DNA of 8,108 nt from an uncultured Brevundimonas sp. (GTDB lineage Bacteria; Pseudomonadota; Alphaproteobacteria; Caulobacterales; Caulobacteraceae): assembly GCA_946481405.1 (NCBI GenBank), contig CAMLNY010000032.1:1-8108 (forward strand), given 5' to 3'. Position numbers and translations under genes: made by a program. Numbering within the stretch: position 1 is the first letter of the stretch; each line of letters opens with the position of its first letter. This document shows, piece after piece, positions 2,348 to 8,108 of this stretch. Under the pieces are notes generated by a model that saw nothing but the letters and a program-made list of their open reading frames with translations, ran no database searches and had not been told where the DNA came from.

Positions 2348-3734
2348 ATGTCAGGCCATGCCGGATCGGAGGAGGTCCGCAAGAGCTACCGGACGCTCGC
2401 GCGGTGGCTCGAGACCGCGCCGCCGGACCTGCTCCAGGCCCGCTCGCGTCAGGCGGAGCTGTTCTTCCGCCGCATGGGGGTGACCTTCGCCGTCTATGGC
2501 GACGTGGAGTCCAATGAACGCCTGATCCCCTTCGATGTAGTGCCGCGCATTATCGGCAAGTCCGAATGGGACGAGCTGGAAAAGGGGCTGAAGCAGCGCG
2601 TCAGCGCGATCAACGCCTTCCTGAAGGACATCTACGGACCGCAGGATTGCATCAAGGCCGGCATCGTCCCGGCCGAACTGATCTTCACCAACCCCCACTA
2701 CCGGCCCGAGATGCAGGGCCGCCGCCCGCCGGGCGACATCTGGACCCACATCTGCGGCGTCGATCTGGTGCGCACGGGCGAGGACGGCTTCGTGGTGCTT
2801 GAGGACAACTGCCGCACCCCTTCGGGCGTCTCCTACATGCTGGAGAACCGCGAGATGATGATGCGGCTGTTCCCGGACCTGTTCGCCGAGCACCGCATCC
2901 GCCCGGTCGAGACCTATACGGACATGCTGCTGGCCAGCCTTCGCGCCAGCGCCCCGGACCACGCCGGCGCGGACCCCAACATCGTAGTCCTGACCCCCGG
3001 GCCGTTCAATTCGGCCTACTACGAACACTCCTTCCTGGCCGACAAGCTGGGGGTGGAGCTGGTCGAGGGCGGGGATCTGTTCGTCGATGACGACGTCGTT
3101 TTCATGCGCACGACCGAGGGCCCCCAACGGGTCGACGTCATCTATCGCCGGGTCGACGACGACTGGCTGGATCCGCTGACCTTCCGCCCCGACTCCTCCG
3201 TCGGCCTATGCTGCGGGCAATGTGACCCTGGCCAACGCGGTCGGCACGGGCGTGGCGGACGACAAGGCCGTCTACACCTACATGCCGGATATCATTAAGT
3301 TCTTCTCCGGCGGCGACCCCATTCTCGGCAATGTCCCCACCTGGCGCTGTCGCGAGCCCGACGCGTTGAAGGAGGTCCTCGACAAGCTCCCCGAGCTGGT
3401 CGTGAAAGAGGTTGGCGGCTCCGGCGGTTACGGCATGCTGGTCGGCCCCGCCTCAACCAGGGCCGAGATCGAGGACTTCCGGAAAAAGCTCATCGCCGAT
3501 CCCGACGACTTCATCGCCCAGCCGACCTTGTCGCTGTCGACGGCCCCGACGCTCGACGGCTCCGGCGCCCTGTCGCCCCGCCACGTCGACCTGCGTCCCT
3601 TCGTCCTGTCCAGCCCCGCCGGCGTCCGCGTCGCCCCGGGCGGCCTGACGCGGGTGGCGCTGAAACAGGGGTCGCTGGTGGTCAACTCCAGCCAGGGCGG
3701 AGGCACGAAAGACACCTGGGTGCTGGACGACTGA
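2348..3734 (+). pseudogene. Circularly permuted ATP-grasp protein of the Anbu cluster (DUF404/DUF407 type), frameshifted
   Basis: Two adjacent reading frames together make one family member. The first part (from 2348 to about 3205) has FAVYGD, RLIPFDVVPRII, ICGVDLVR, EDNCRTPSGVSYMLENR, LTPGPFNSAYYEHSFLA and DVIYRRVDDDWLDPL. The second part (3207-3734, another frame) continues [46 protein letters not shown] and [13 protein letters not shown], which form the ATP-binding part of the fold. Between FRPDSSVG and YAAGNV, family members have about seven residues (VPGLxxA); here one base remains, so about 20 bases appear to be missing. Translated as is, the first part runs into an out-of-frame tail ending at 3298. 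The family is predicted to be an amidoligase joining a carboxylate to an amine using ATP. The annotated ATG may not be the original start (see findings). The stop overlaps the alpha-E start by one base. The gene is non-functional as written, unless the lesion is an assembly error. Confidence 0.85.
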
Positions 3735-4672
3735 TGCTGAGCCGCACCGCAGAGAGCCTGTACTGGACGGGCCGCTATATGGAGCGGGCCGATTTCCTCG
3801 CGCGCATTCTGGAGGCGGCCCTGCGTCTGGCCGCCCTTCCGGCCCGCGACGGCGCCGCCGCCACGGCCTGGGCCTCGGCCATCGCCTCGGCGGGGGTGTC
3901 GCGTCAGTTCGCCGCCAGCGCCCGCACACCGTCCGAGAAATCGGTCCGCGAATACCTCGCCTTCGCCCCGGACAATCCGTCGTCGATCCGCGCCTGCATC
4001 ACTGCGGCCCGCACCAACGCCCGTTCGGTCCGCACAGCCCTGACCATCGAGCTCTGGGAAGCCATCAACGGCGCCTGGAACGGTCTGGGCGAGTTCGGCG
4101 AGCCGACCAAGCGCGACGACTTCGTCCGCTTCCTGGAATGGGTGAAGGGCGTGTCGCTGGCCGTCGAGGGCGCCTCCTCGCGGACCATGCTGCGCAACGA
4201 CGCCTACTGGTTCCTGCGACTGGGGATGGCGATCGAGCGGGCCGACAACACCGCCCGCCTGCTGGACGTGAAATACCATCTGCTGCTGCCGGCCGGTGAG
4301 CGGGTCGGCGGTCAGCTCGACTATTTCCAGTGGACGACGCTGCTGCGCGAGGTCTCGGCCCTGACCGCCTATCGCTGGGTCTATCGTGAGAGTGTCCGGC
4401 CGTGGCTGGTCGCCGACCTGATGGTCCTGAACCGCCAGATGCCGCGCTCCCTGGCCAGCTGTCAGGCCATGATCGTCTCCTATCTGGAGAAGCTGGCCGC
4501 CGACTACGGCCGGCGCGGTCCGGCCCAGCGCCTCGCCTCGGCCCGTCTGACCCGGTTCAACGAGACCAGTATCGAAGAGATCTTTCAGTCGGGTCTGCAC
4601 GAATACATCCTGGCCTTCCTGAGCGAGAACAACGCCCTGGCCAGCGCCATCCACGACCAGTACCTGGTGTAG
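3734..4672 (+). CDS. Alpha-E domain protein of the Anbu cluster
   Basis: This 312-residue, almost entirely helical protein opens with MLSRTAESLYWTGRYMERAD, the hallmark of the alpha-E family. It also carries DNPSSI, NARSVR and, at about residues 152-181, MLRNDAYWFLRLGMAIERAD followed by NTARLLDVKY. The length matches the family (about 310) and no lesion is visible. It starts on the last base of the ATP-grasp stop (TGATG), so its translation is probably coupled to that gene. A premature stop in the broken upstream frame at 3296-3298 could therefore reduce its expression. Its stop is six bases before the transglutaminase start. Alpha-E proteins nearly always accompany this ATP-grasp and transglutaminase pair. 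Their biochemical role is unknown; they are proposed to act with the amidoligase as a partner or scaffold. Confidence 0.92.
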   Translation: MLSRTAESLYWTGRYMERADFLARILEAALRLAALPARDGAAATAWASAIASAGVSRQFAASARTPSEKSVREYLAFAPDNPSSIRACITAARTNARSVRTALTIELWEAINGAWNGLGEFGEPTKRDDFVRFLEWVKGVSLAVEGASSRTMLRNDAYWFLRLGMAIERADNTARLLDVKYHLLLPAGERVGGQLDYFQWTTLLREVSALTAYRWVYRESVRPWLVADLMVLNRQMPRSLASCQAMIVSYLEKLAADYGRRGPAQRLASARLTRFNETSIEEIFQSGLHEYILAFLSENNALASAIHDQYLV

Positions 4673-4678
4673 GCGGCG

Positions 4679-5512
4679 ATGCGCATCCGGATCGATCACG
4701 AAACCCGATACGCCTACGACCGCGCCGCCCGGTTCATCGTCCAGGTGCTGCGCCTGACGCCGCGCTCGACCGAGGGCCAGCAGGTCCGCGACTGGCGTAT
4801 CGAGACCGACGTCGACGCCCATCTGCGCCGGTCCGAGGACGCCTTCGGCAACATCGTCCACTCCCTCTATACCGAGCGTCCGACCAACGGCCTGATGGTC
4901 CGGGTGACTGGCGAGATCGCCACGGTCGACACCGGCGGCGTCCTGCGCGGCAGCCCCGAACGCCTGTCTCCGCTGGTCTTCCTTCGCGACACCCCCCTGA
5001 CCCAGGCCGACGCCGCCCTGCGCCAGCTGGCCGCCGAGGCGGGGAGGGCGACTCGCTGACCCGCCTGCACCGGCTGATGGCCCTGATCCACGGCCAGGTC
5101 GCCTTCATGGTCGGCGCCACCACCCCCGATCACACCGCCGCTGACGCCTTCGCCCAGAAGCAGGGCGTCTGTCAGGATCACGCCCAGATCTTCATCTCGG
5201 CCGCCCGGCGCATGGGCATCCCGGCCCGCTATGTCTCGGGCCATCTGCATCGCACCGACGGCATCGAACATCAGGAGGCCGCCCACGCCTGGGCCGAGGC
5301 CTGGGTCGAGGATCTGGGCTGGGTTCGACGCGGCCAACGGCGTCTGTCCGACCGAACATTATGTCCGCGTCGCCTGCGGCCTTGACGCGCTCGGCGCCTC
5401 GCCGATCCGGGGGACCAGCTACGGCGGCGGTCGCGAGACGATGAGCGTGGCCCTGCGTGTGCGTCAGATGCAACAGACCCAGCAGCAACAGCAGCGGCAG
5501 GGCTGGTCGTGA
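4679..5512 (+). pseudogene. Transglutaminase-like cysteine peptidase of the Anbu cluster, two frameshifts
   Basis: Three reading frames in series rebuild one protein of about 280 residues. The N-terminal part (4679 to about 5044) starts MRIRIDHETRYAYDRAARF, the usual beginning of bacterial transglutaminase-like proteins. The core (5044-5323, shifted) has the catalytic Cys in GVCQDHA (codon 5170-5172) and His in AAHAWAEAW (codon 5284-5286). The C-terminal part (from 5324) begins FDAANG with the catalytic Asp (codon 5327-5329) and runs to SYGGGRETMSV and a Gln-rich tail. All three catalytic residues survive but in different frames. The first break is one missing G in a G run at 5041-5044. The second is just after TGG at 5320-5322, where family members read WVGFD and about five bases are missing. 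As written, translation from 4679 stops at 5059. Members of this fold cleave or cross-link peptides at Gln or amide bonds; here it probably acts on the product of the ATP-grasp enzyme. Confidence 0.87.
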
Positions 5513-5516
5513 ACGC

Positions 5517-5551
5517 CGTTAACCTCGTCTTGAATCCCGAATCTGTTAACG
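5517..5551. promoter_or_regulatory. Paired GTTAAC inverted repeat upstream of the Anbu gene
   Basis: CGTTAAC (5517-5523) and GTTAACG (5545-5551) are perfect seven-base inverted arms with a 21-base spacer, in the 88-base gap between the transglutaminase stop and the Anbu ATG. A TTGAAT at 5530-5535 lies between them and could be a -35 element, with the second arm overlapping a possible -10. The arrangement suits a separate, regulated promoter for the protease, but the core promoter assignment is weak. TTAA motifs also resemble CtrA half-sites; the spacing does not fit a full CtrA site. Confidence 0.35.
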
Positions 5552-5552
5552 T

Positions 5553-5577
5553 GATCCCTTCTTCCCGGTGGGGGATC
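5553..5577 (+). other. Small hairpin in the leader of the Anbu gene
   Basis: GATCCC (5553-5558) and GGGATC (5572-5577) form a six-base stem with a 13-base loop, ending 23 bases before the Anbu ATG. No good Shine-Dalgarno lies in the usual position before that ATG, so the leader structure may matter for translation, or may simply reflect GC-rich sequence. Confidence 0.25.
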
Positions 5578-5600
5578 GGCGCGGGGGCCGGTCTATCGCT

Positions 5601-6377
5601 ATGACTTACTGCGTCGGCATGATGGTGAACGAGGGTCTGGCGATGATCGCCGACACCCGCACGAACGCCGGCGTCGACAACATTTCCTCCTACAAAAAGC
5701 TGCACGTCACCGAGGTGACGGGCGAGCGCGTCGTCGCTATCGCCACGGCCGGCAACCTGTCCGTGACCCAGACGGCGCTGGCCATGCTGGCCGACGGCGT
5801 GGTCATGCCCGGCCACGAGGAGCCGGAGACGCTTCAGACCGCTCCGACCCTGTTCCGCGCGGCCCAGCTTGCCGGCTACTGCCTGAACCAGGTGCGCCAG
5901 GATTTGCAGCCGACCATGGCCGCCGAGGCGCTGAAGATCACCGCCTCCATGCTGCTGGGTGGCCAGATCAGGGGGGGCCGCATGGGGCTCTATCTGATCT
6001 ACGCCCAGGGCAACTTCATCGAGTGCGGGACCGACACCCCCTATCTCCAGATCGGCGAACTCAAATACGGCAAGCCCATTCTGGACCGGGCGCTGCGTCC
6101 CGAGACCCCCATGGCTGAGGCGGTCAAACTGGGGCTGATCAGTTTCGATTCGACCATCCGCTCCAACATCGCTGTGGGTCCGCCGTTCGACATGATCGTC
6201 ATCCCGCGTGACGAGATGCACGGCGACCAGCGCCGCATCGAGGCCGACGATCCCTATTTCAAGGATCTCGGCCGCCGCTGGTCCGAAGCCCTCGCCCAGG
6301 CCCACCGCGCGATGCCCGCCCCGCCCTGGATGGAGCCCGCCGCCCAGAGCCGCCCCAGCATTTCTGTGGTGGGCTAG
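5601..6377 (+). CDS. Anbu, proteasome-like N-terminal-threonine peptidase
   Basis: Starting at this ATG gives 258 residues beginning MTYCVGMMVNEGLAMIADTR. Removing Met exposes Thr1, the expected catalytic nucleophile of the Ntn-hydrolase fold. Asp17 (in IADTRTNAG) and the Lys pair at mature 31-32 (SSYKKLHV) fill the places of the proteasomal Asp17 and Lys33, and ATAGNLSVTQ holds the oxyanion-hole Gly. GTDTPYLQIGELKYGKPILD and IRSNIAVGPPFDM are further family segments. A GTG at 5568 would extend the frame by 11 residues, but this would bury the threonine, so it was rejected. The C-terminus ends in a Pro-rich tail (PAPPWMEP). Anbu forms large open-ring or helical assemblies in characterised species, is related to HslV, and lacks a known unfoldase partner. 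The gene follows the transglutaminase by 88 bases and is intact, unlike two of its three cluster mates. It may have its own promoter. The physiological substrate is unknown. Confidence 0.93.
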   Translation: MTYCVGMMVNEGLAMIADTRTNAGVDNISSYKKLHVTEVTGERVVAIATAGNLSVTQTALAMLADGVVMPGHEEPETLQTAPTLFRAAQLAGYCLNQVRQDLQPTMAAEALKITASMLLGGQIRGGRMGLYLIYAQGNFIECGTDTPYLQIGELKYGKPILDRALRPETPMAEAVKLGLISFDSTIRSNIAVGPPFDMIVIPRDEMHGDQRRIEADDPYFKDLGRRWSEALAQAHRAMPAPPWMEPAAQSRPSISVVG

Positions 6378-6570: not shown

Positions 6571-8108
6571 GTGTCCCTCCCCAACGCTCTCGCTCTCCGC
6601 ACCCTGCTCGGCGCCTCGACGGCCGCCGGCATGTTGTGCGCCGCGCCCGCCTTCGCTTCTGATCCCGCGACCGTCGCGCCCGCTGCAGATCCGGCCAGCG
6701 CACAGGAGACCCAGCCGACCTCAACCCTCGAAACCGTCGACGTCGAGGGCCGACGCGTCCGTCGCGAGCCGAACTCGCCGCAATTCACCGCCGACGTCGT
6801 CGACACCCCGCGCGCCGTCACCGTGATCCCGCAGCGGATCATCGAGCAGACCGGCGCCACCTCGCTGCAGGACCTGCTGCGCACCTCGCCGGGCATCACC
6901 TTCGGCGCCGGCGAGGGTGGCCAGCCCCTGGCCGACCGTCCTTTCATCCGCGGTCAGGCCTCGGCCAACAACGTCTTCCTCGACGGCATCCGCGACACCG
7001 GCGGCCAACAACGTGAGGTCTTCGCCCTGGAGCAGGTCGAGGTCATCAAGGGCCCGGACTCGGTCTATTCCGGCCGCGGCTCGGGCGGCGGCGCCATCAA
7101 CCTGTCGACCAAGTCGCCGCGTCTCGAGCGTTTCACGACGATGTCGCTGGGCGGCGGCACGGACGGCTATCTGCGCGGCACGGTCGACTGGAACGCCCCG
7201 CTCGGCGAAACGGCGGCGCTCCGCGTCAACCTGATGGGCGCGCAAGGGGACGTCCCCGGCCGCGACGCCGTCGACTATGACAAGTGGGGCGTCCTCGTCT
7301 CGGCAGGCATCGGTCTGGGGACCGACACCCATCTGACGGCCAGCTACTACCACCTGACCTCAAACCAGATGCCCGACTACGGCATCCCGCTGTTCACCAA
7401 GATCGGCGTGCGCACCACGGACTCGGGCGTTCTCGACGTCCCCTACGACAGCTTCTACGGCTTGACGGCGCGCGACTATCTGATCGGCGAGACCGACGCT
7501 TTCACCCTGGACTTCCAGAAGCGGCTGTCGGACGCCGTCACCATCCGCAACGTCACCCGCTATTCCGAGAACCTGAACGACTACGTCGTGACCAACCCGG
7601 GCGACGGCGGCAACACGGCTTCGGCGCCCCCCGGCGTGGCCCTGATAAACGGCGTCTACTGGATGAAGCGAGGCCTGAAGTCGCGCTGGAACCCGACGAA
7701 GACCCTGTCCAACGTCACCGACATCTTCGGCACGGTGAGCTGGGGCGGCCTGACCCACTCCTATGACGTCGGGCTGGAGCTGAGCCGCGAGCGCAACAAC
7801 AATGCGTCCTGGACCGTCACGACCCTGACCGGCACGGCTTGCCCCGCGCCCTTGACGGGTCCGGACTGCACCCGTCTGTACGACCCGAACCCGTCCGATC
7901 CCTGGACCGGCACGATCGTGAAGGGCGTGGTCTCGACCAATCTGGCCGAGACGACCGGCCTCTACGCCTTCGACTCCATCGCGATTGGCGAGCAGTGGAT
8001 CGTCAACCTCGGCGTCCGCTACGACCAGTATTCGGTCGAGGGCACGGATGCGACCGGCACGATCGCCGCCCCTGTCTACACCCCGCGCAACGGCGACTGG
8101 GACTTCGT
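6571..8108 (+). CDS. TonB-dependent catecholate-siderophore-type receptor, 3' end outside the window
   Basis: The open frame runs 512 codons to the window edge without a stop. A GTG start gives MSLPNALALRTLLGASTAAG and then MLCAAPAFA, a signal peptide cleaved near residue 29. A TonB-box-like ETVDVEG lies at 54-60. The plug follows: DTPRAVTVIPQRII, LQDLLRTSPGITFG, RPFIRGQASANNVFLDGIRD, and EVFALEQVEVIKGPDSVYSG before RGSGGGAINLSTKSP. The RDTGGQQRE stretch next to the plug's VEVIKGP is very like the Fiu group of catecholate receptors. The rest is the first strands of the 22-strand barrel, rich in Tyr/Trp turns, with a Cys pair in an extracellular loop (TACPAPLTGPDC). The protein imports Fe-siderophore across the outer membrane using TonB-ExbBD energy. 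The upstream stop at 6481-6483 limits the start to this GTG or nearby; the ribosome binding site is weak. The ligand cannot be stated with certainty. Confidence 0.9.
   Translation, partial: MSLPNALALRTLLGASTAAGMLCAAPAFASDPATVAPAADPASAQETQPTSTLETVDVEGRRVRREPNSPQFTADVVDTPRAVTVIPQRIIEQTGATSLQDLLRTSPGITFGAGEGGQPLADRPFIRGQASANNVFLDGIRDTGGQQREVFALEQVEVIKGPDSVYSGRGSGGGAINLSTKSPRLERFTTMSLGGGTDGYLRGTVDWNAPLGETAALRVNLMGAQGDVPGRDAVDYDKWGVLVSAGIGLGTDTHLTASYYHLTSNQMPDYGIPLFTKIGVRTTDSGVLDVPYDSFYGLTARDYLIGETDAFTLDFQKRLSDAVTIRNVTRYSENLNDYVVTNPGDGGNTASAPPGVALINGVYWMKRGLKSRWNPTKTLSNVTDIFGTVSWGGLTHSYDVGLELSRERNNNASWTVTTLTGTACPAPLTGPDCTRLYDPNPSDPWTGTIVKGVVSTNLAETTGLYAFDSIAIGEQWIVNLGVRYDQYSVEGTDATGTIAAPVYTPRNGDWDF

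Follow-up and report, generated by a model that had tools for sequence, protein, structure and literature searches.

An operon made of ATP-grasp, Alpha-E, transglutaminase and Anbu genes is already known; PMC6376114 and PMC5666114 both attribute it to Valas and Bourne (2008) and to Iyer et al. (2009). According to the same two papers, the substrates and the role of Anbu are unconfirmed, and other Anbu proteins have been reported as open-ring oligomers. Two further systems act on the C-terminal end of a protein: the C-terminal glutamine (Gln) of Pup is deamidated by Dop and then ligated (PMC8599861), and RimK is an ATP-grasp ligase that adds glutamate residues to the C-terminus of RpsF, from which a protease removes them (PMC12239564, PMC11957791). 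Here we describe a stretch of 8,108 nucleotides of an uncultured Brevundimonas sp. (contig CAMLNY010000032.1; hereafter the window), which carries ATP-grasp, Alpha-E, transglutaminase-like (TG) and Anbu genes. This locus is a damaged copy of the already known Anbu operon, and the part of it worth a second look is a Gln-rich tail at the C-terminus of TG.

In the list of open reading frames (ORFs) of the window, the ATP-grasp, Alpha-E, TG and Anbu genes are consecutive in that order and all lie on the plus strand. The two pieces of the ATP-grasp gene (2348..3734), which encodes a circularly permuted ligase with the solved relative 3n6x, match CP_ATPgrasp_1 (1.5e-102) and CP_ATPgrasp_2 (5.1e-53). 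The intact Alpha-E gene (3734..4672; 312 residues) matches PF04168 at 1.1e-89, the first two pieces of the TG gene (4679..5512) match Bact_transglu_N (1.1e-22) and Transglut_core (6.1e-20), and the product of the Anbu gene (5601..6377; 258 residues) matches Proteasome. The Pfam E-values of the cluster pieces, which run from 7e-5 (Anbu, a weak match) to 1.5e-102, are above chance, and in comparisons with solved structures of Anbu its product scored from 1.7e-77 (5loy) to 8.6e-56. The start of Alpha-E (3734) shares one base with the ATP-grasp stop (3732-3734), 6 bases separate the Alpha-E stop from the TG start, and 88 bases lie between the TG stop (5512) and the Anbu ATG (5601). Among 80 loci picked by likeness to the window Anbu, the nearest in DNA were two from Brevundimonas (L001 and L002; ∼87–88% identity over the cluster), and the top Anbu match in the species-genome collection was 89% identical, so that the species of the window is probably absent from this collection. 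A preliminary description of the window had named these four families with their order, strand and spacing; the ORF list, the sequence and the Pfam searches bear it out, all four products falling in the named families. Its identification of the cluster, and its account of a tagging or peptide-synthesis role as proposed and unproven, agree with PMC6376114 and PMC5666114, the cycle of synthesis and degradation that it suggested being an interpretation of the gene set. The same description had called the neighbourhood complete, and this part of the observation did not stand, as the copy as sequenced has broken frames in ATP-grasp and TG, both of which are open in relatives.

The ATP-grasp gene consists of one ORF at 2348-3298 and, after a change of frame, another at 3222-3734. 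TG falls into three pieces, of which the first (4679-5059) and the third (about 5324 to 5512) share a frame, and the second, running to about 5323, is in another. Alignment with seven loci of the Brevundimonas clade, six of which were aligned again in a second comparison, located the lesions. Relative to these loci, 20 bases are absent from the ATP-grasp gene after 3203, and the TG gene lacks 5 bases after 5323 and 4 bases after 5044, the latter deletion amounting to 1 base against three of the seven that are 3 bases shorter there. Within the ATP-grasp and TG genes of the relatives, gaps were of 3 bases only, longer ones being confined to gene junctions. In 12 Brevundimonas-clade loci (L001-L012), TG was a single full-length ORF in all 12 and ATP-grasp in 10, the other two being cut by contig ends. 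The codons of the TG catalytic triad, which share one frame in relatives, are divided in the window, with Cys and His in the second, frame-shifted piece and Asp in the last. If the breaks are real, the ligase and TG would be dead in the window, with Alpha-E and Anbu remaining.

Whether the three deletions are instead sequencing or assembly errors in a cluster that is in reality intact appears to us evenly balanced. Between the window and L001, the differences at codon positions 1, 2 and 3 were 0.046, 0.022 and 0.237 for ATP-grasp and 0.073, 0.047 and 0.251 for TG, and the constraint on TG was similar to that between L001 and L002. These patterns still show selection at the protein level, ongoing or until very recently, which argues that the breaks are either very recent or errors. 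Against errors, the deletions measure 20, 1 or 4, and 5 bases and lie at sequences that by eye resemble short direct repeats or a run of G, which suggests slippage deletions over single-base read errors. Moreover, all three fall inside two genes of the cluster, whereas, in the ORF list, the remaining larger frames of the window are open (the minus-strand ORF at 38-685, DUF3034, the globin-like gene, Alpha-E, Anbu, and the TonB receptor up to the window end). The cluster of the window should not be annotated as complete.

The tail itself, QMQQTQQQQQRQGWS, is encoded on the plus strand at 5465..5509, where the first frame is regained, and was recognized from the sequence and by comparison with relatives, in which the C-terminus of TG is usually Gln-rich or ends in Gln. 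In the 61 four-gene operons of a draw of 299 Pseudomonadota genomes (the phylum draw), Gln was the last TG residue in 44 and occurred within the last three in 59. When all loci fetched were considered, 152 distinct TGs lay between Alpha-E and Anbu: 107 were Gln-ended, 136 had a Gln in the last three positions, and only four (L102, L259, L265 and L038) had none in the last eight. Paralogous small TGs are found in a second Alpha-E system, a grouping made in this analysis in which ATP-grasp is fused to Alpha-E and accompanied by a small TG and often by a TG of roughly 1100 residues. None of 28 such small TGs was Gln-ended, 4 had a Gln in the last three and 22 had none in the last eight; eight further distinct small TGs belonged to small odd context classes. 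With representatives taken at 60% identity, 34/44 Anbu-operon TGs, 0/21 fused-system TGs and 5/11 TGs beside Alpha-E without Anbu next to them were Gln-ended, the difference between the Anbu-operon and fused-system groups having a Fisher p of 7e-10, uncorrected for kinship. The products of the partner genes were seldom Gln-ended in the representative loci (ATP-grasp, 2/44; Alpha-E, 4/45; Anbu, 2/31), and of the 352 residues at the last eight positions of TG, 122 were Gln, compared to 3.8% in TG bodies. The tail is not only an effect of the ribosome site, because it was kept where TG and Anbu are at least 50 bases apart (12/19 representatives Gln-ended, 16/19 with a Gln in the last three). The codons of the tail are also distinctive: in 11 Brevundimonas-clade loci (L001-L011), two CAA positions in the Gln run were fixed in all 11, CAA accounting for 30 of 92 Gln codons in the tail and for 12 of 376 in the rest of the four genes, where CAG is almost always used. 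CAA is found at the same two positions in the window (5471-5488), and these fixed codons may break up a slippage-prone CAG repeat. In the excerpts of the Anbu literature (PMC6376114, PMC5666114), we found no mention of the TG tail.

The tail was then placed on a tree of 130 TGs (cut at 75% identity, last 25 residues excluded), a TG being scored as tailed if it ended in Gln or had at least two Gln in its last eight residues; 81/86 Anbu-operon TGs and 8/18 others outside the fused system bore it. It also accompanies the ligase and Alpha-E in genomes in which the Anbu query found nothing (L144, L146, L149, L088/L285 and L289), although these genomes may be incomplete, and on pSymB of S. meliloti a TG with the tail VEQQGQSQAQN is encoded with ligase and Alpha-E and with no adjoining Anbu. 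The Cys-His-Asp triad was intact in 124/130 TGs. Three TGs (L091, L088 and L231), with Y, S or G at the Cys position, have lost the catalytic Cys and kept the tail; in two (L102 and L153) neither Cys nor tail remains, and L156 deviates from the triad at Asp.

Starting from what was directly observed, namely the families, the gene order, the breaks, and the Gln tail with its distribution, we infer each step of a mechanism that we put forward as possible but tentative: the Gln-rich tail of TG would be the acceptor of a modification by the ATP-grasp ligase, with trimming by Anbu predicted. In intact relatives, the ligase would form an amide bond on the tail, either at its terminal carboxylate or at a Gln side chain that has first been deamidated. 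The transglutaminase fold would present the tail and, where the Cys-His-Asp triad is present, may deamidate it or carry out a transfer on it. Alpha-E, usually encoded beside the ligase, would serve as a helper or adaptor of the ligase, and Anbu, where present, would take off the added group or degrade the tagged protein. We propose the tail as acceptor of the ligase because it accompanies ligase and Alpha-E even without Anbu or without the Cys of TG, and because Pup and RimK/RpsF likewise involve action at a C-terminal end. A bolder and more doubtful version makes TG the substrate of the operon, a self-presenting, Pup-like carrier whose C-terminal Gln residues would accept a peptide or amine tag built by ATP-grasp and Alpha-E and read or removed by Anbu, the fold being an enzyme only secondarily; that some members without the catalytic Cys keep the tail would point to a carrier more than to an enzyme. 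A conserved Gln tail on a protein of the operon offers a concrete place to seek its product, the C-terminus of one protein, and it would constrain the models, since tail, ligase and Alpha-E occur together also where the Anbu query found none.

Several observations weigh against the tail as ligase acceptor. In the Anbu operons, 45 of the 152 TG tails are not Gln-ended, and TGs beside Alpha-E without Anbu next are divided, 6/12 ending in Gln and 6/12 not; in Deinococcus and Paenibacillus, the TGs next to Alpha-E are free of Gln over their last eight residues. By the looser criterion of the tree, the tail is also present in 1/26 fused-system TGs. Over the 130 TGs the trait needs only 8 changes, and five independent pairs gave no support for a tie to Anbu as such (median p 1, in a test without power); the tail therefore marks a TG subfamily and is mostly one inherited trait. 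In 18 genomes selected for an Anbu gene located apart from a small TG, three encoded a TG of the subfamily (score over 200), with the tails QAQVQTQS, SQGRGYRRF and DKITLEP, only one of which (L290) is Q-rich; from this set, Anbu does not need a Q-tailed TG. The published biochemistry is neutral to negative for the proposed mechanism: with the proteins of Yersinia bercovieri, the ATP-grasp protein released phosphate, an activity that neither glutamine nor glutamate stimulated, Anbu showed no peptidase activity, none of three test peptides being cut, and no specific interaction was detected (PMC6376114), and the authors of PMC5666114 state that their own data make the peptide-synthesis proposal less likely.

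Other explanations of the tail were also considered. It might be an inherited, functionless, low-complexity end to which the product of the operon is unrelated, as the 8 changes on the tree, the powerless pair test and the variable length and exact letters of the tail would allow. We nevertheless hold this to be unlikely: Gln is kept in 81/86 Anbu-operon TGs cut at 75% identity while the other residues and the length of the tail change, the fused-system paralogs do not have Gln as last residue, and the two CAA codons are fixed in the 11 Brevundimonas-clade loci, in which CAA is otherwise rare. TG might instead use the tail as its own Gln donor, crosslinking or deamidating its own tail or that of a neighbouring subunit, with the ATP-grasp ligase acting elsewhere. 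The triad present in 124/130 TGs, the QSQSQ-like letters of many tails and the fact that transglutaminases act at Gln residues (PMC6376114) are all consistent with such a donor, an improbable one in our estimation as the tail is kept in the three TGs without the catalytic Cys.

Two further explanations centre on Anbu. The tail could activate Anbu by docking on it, in the way that the C-terminus of HslU docks on HslV: it lies at the C-terminus and is concentrated in Anbu operons, and the inter-subunit groove of Anbu could take an HslU-like tail (PMC6376114). Yet Q-tailed TGs occur in genomes without an Anbu match and on pSymB of S. meliloti without adjoining Anbu, and Anbu occurs without a Q-tailed TG, which makes docking very unlikely. 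Alternatively, Anbu could act as a general protease when nitrogen is scarce, without the four genes making up a single pathway. Anbu is upregulated in nitrogen-limited Pseudomonas putida (cited in PMC5666114 and PMC6376114), binding of a proteasome inhibitor has been reported (PMC5666114), and at 12 of 95 classed Anbu places no ATP-grasp or Alpha-E gene is nearby. Because Alpha-E is present in 100/101 Anbu genomes and the four genes lie on one strand at 61/95 places, we give this explanation little weight.

Co-occurrence was examined at several scales, with one protein query for Anbu (E 1e-10) and the Pfam family for Alpha-E. All four genes were present in 74 of the 80 loci selected by Anbu likeness; some of the other six (L005, L010, L030, L045, L058 and L079) are cut by contig ends. 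In a class draw of 142 genomes, Alpha-E was found in 48 and Anbu in 35, all 35 within the 48. In the phylum draw, Alpha-E was found in 156 genomes, Anbu in 101 and both in 100, so that Anbu is widespread in Pseudomonadota (101/299) and the genes strongly co-occur. A lack of co-occurrence elsewhere would have refuted the preliminary description, and the survey did not refute it. Of the 102 Anbu places of this draw, 95 were classed, the other 7 being in genomes met earlier, and these counts ignore kinship. Besides the 61 places with all four genes on one strand, TG was absent at 3, ATP-grasp and Alpha-E were on the opposite strand at 4, 15 were beside the second system (fused ATP-grasp/Alpha-E and/or long TG), and at the remaining 12 Anbu was alone within the stretch fetched. 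At eleven loci (L260, L263, L266, L268-L270, L274, L278-L280 and L282), Anbu adjoins the fused ATP-grasp/Alpha-E system and the long TG, and a separate ATP-grasp/Alpha-E pair is nearby. One contig (L023), filed as Enemella evansiae, which we take to be a member of the Actinomycetota, bears a Rhodobacterales-like Anbu operon and is perhaps a contamination.

Compared with the systems described above, the window shares with the Anbu operon the same four families, their order, the single strand, and the pocket type and catalytic residues of Anbu-1, and differs from it by the two frame-broken genes. The second Alpha-E system is built from the same families of domains, and at the 15 places mentioned either the system or its long TG is a neighbour of Anbu, but its genes are fused and none of its 28 small TGs ends in Gln. 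The Pup-proteasome system is similar by analogy only, in that it too combines a C-terminal Gln with a ligase that forms amide bonds and a protease of the proteasome type. However, the ligase of the window is of the ATP-grasp type and not glutamine-synthetase-like, its Gln tail sits on a transglutaminase fold, and a Pfam scan of 10 window pieces gave no match to Pup, PafA or Dop. RimK-RimB, again by analogy only, likewise sets a protease against an ATP-grasp ligase that works at the C-terminus of a protein, whereas the window has a circularly permuted ATP-grasp and Anbu; we know of no link between the Anbu operon and RpsF. A RimK-type ATP-grasp domain was considered for the window and rejected, as both ATP-grasp pieces match only CP_ATPgrasp_1 and CP_ATPgrasp_2 (Pfam, E up to 0.001).

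With a start at the ATG at 5601, the second codon of the Anbu gene (5604-5606) encodes a Thr, which from the sequence would be the N-terminal catalytic residue Thr1 of the mature protein; an alternative, longer ORF starts at a GTG at 5568 and would leave this Thr buried. Of the catalytic residues named for Anbu in PMC6376114 (Thr1, Asp17 and Lys32/33), the window has Thr1, Asp17 and Lys32. The S1 pocket is described as amphiphilic in Anbu-1 (T20, F30, T48, L52 and S55) and basic in Anbu-2 (PMC5666114). That of the window, T-Y-T-L-T, is of the Anbu-1 type with two conservative differences, and eight Anbu-2-like loci have I/V-A-x-R-R.

A predicted structure of the TG of one relative (L013; alignment of 70 rows) had a mean predicted local distance difference test score (pLDDT) of 96.1, and of 83 in its last block; its best solved match was 3isr of Cytophaga hutchinsonii, with a TM-score of 0.81 by model length. 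The AlphaFold2 model of the window Alpha-E (3734-4672) consisted of helices only (mean pLDDT 94.8), and no significant match to it was found in the PDB with Foldseek.

The cluster is flanked just upstream by two genes (Pfam; 800-2232), one for a DUF3034 protein and one for a product of the bacterial globin-like kind, and the DNA alignments extend through this region in several relatives, e.g., L003, L004, L009 and L011. Further upstream, a minus-strand ORF of 215 residues (38-685) has a weak, below-cutoff match to CarboxypepD_reg. Downstream, a TonB-dependent receptor gene (6571-8108) runs off the window end; over this partial stretch, its product is closest to Fiu, below the cut-off of that model.

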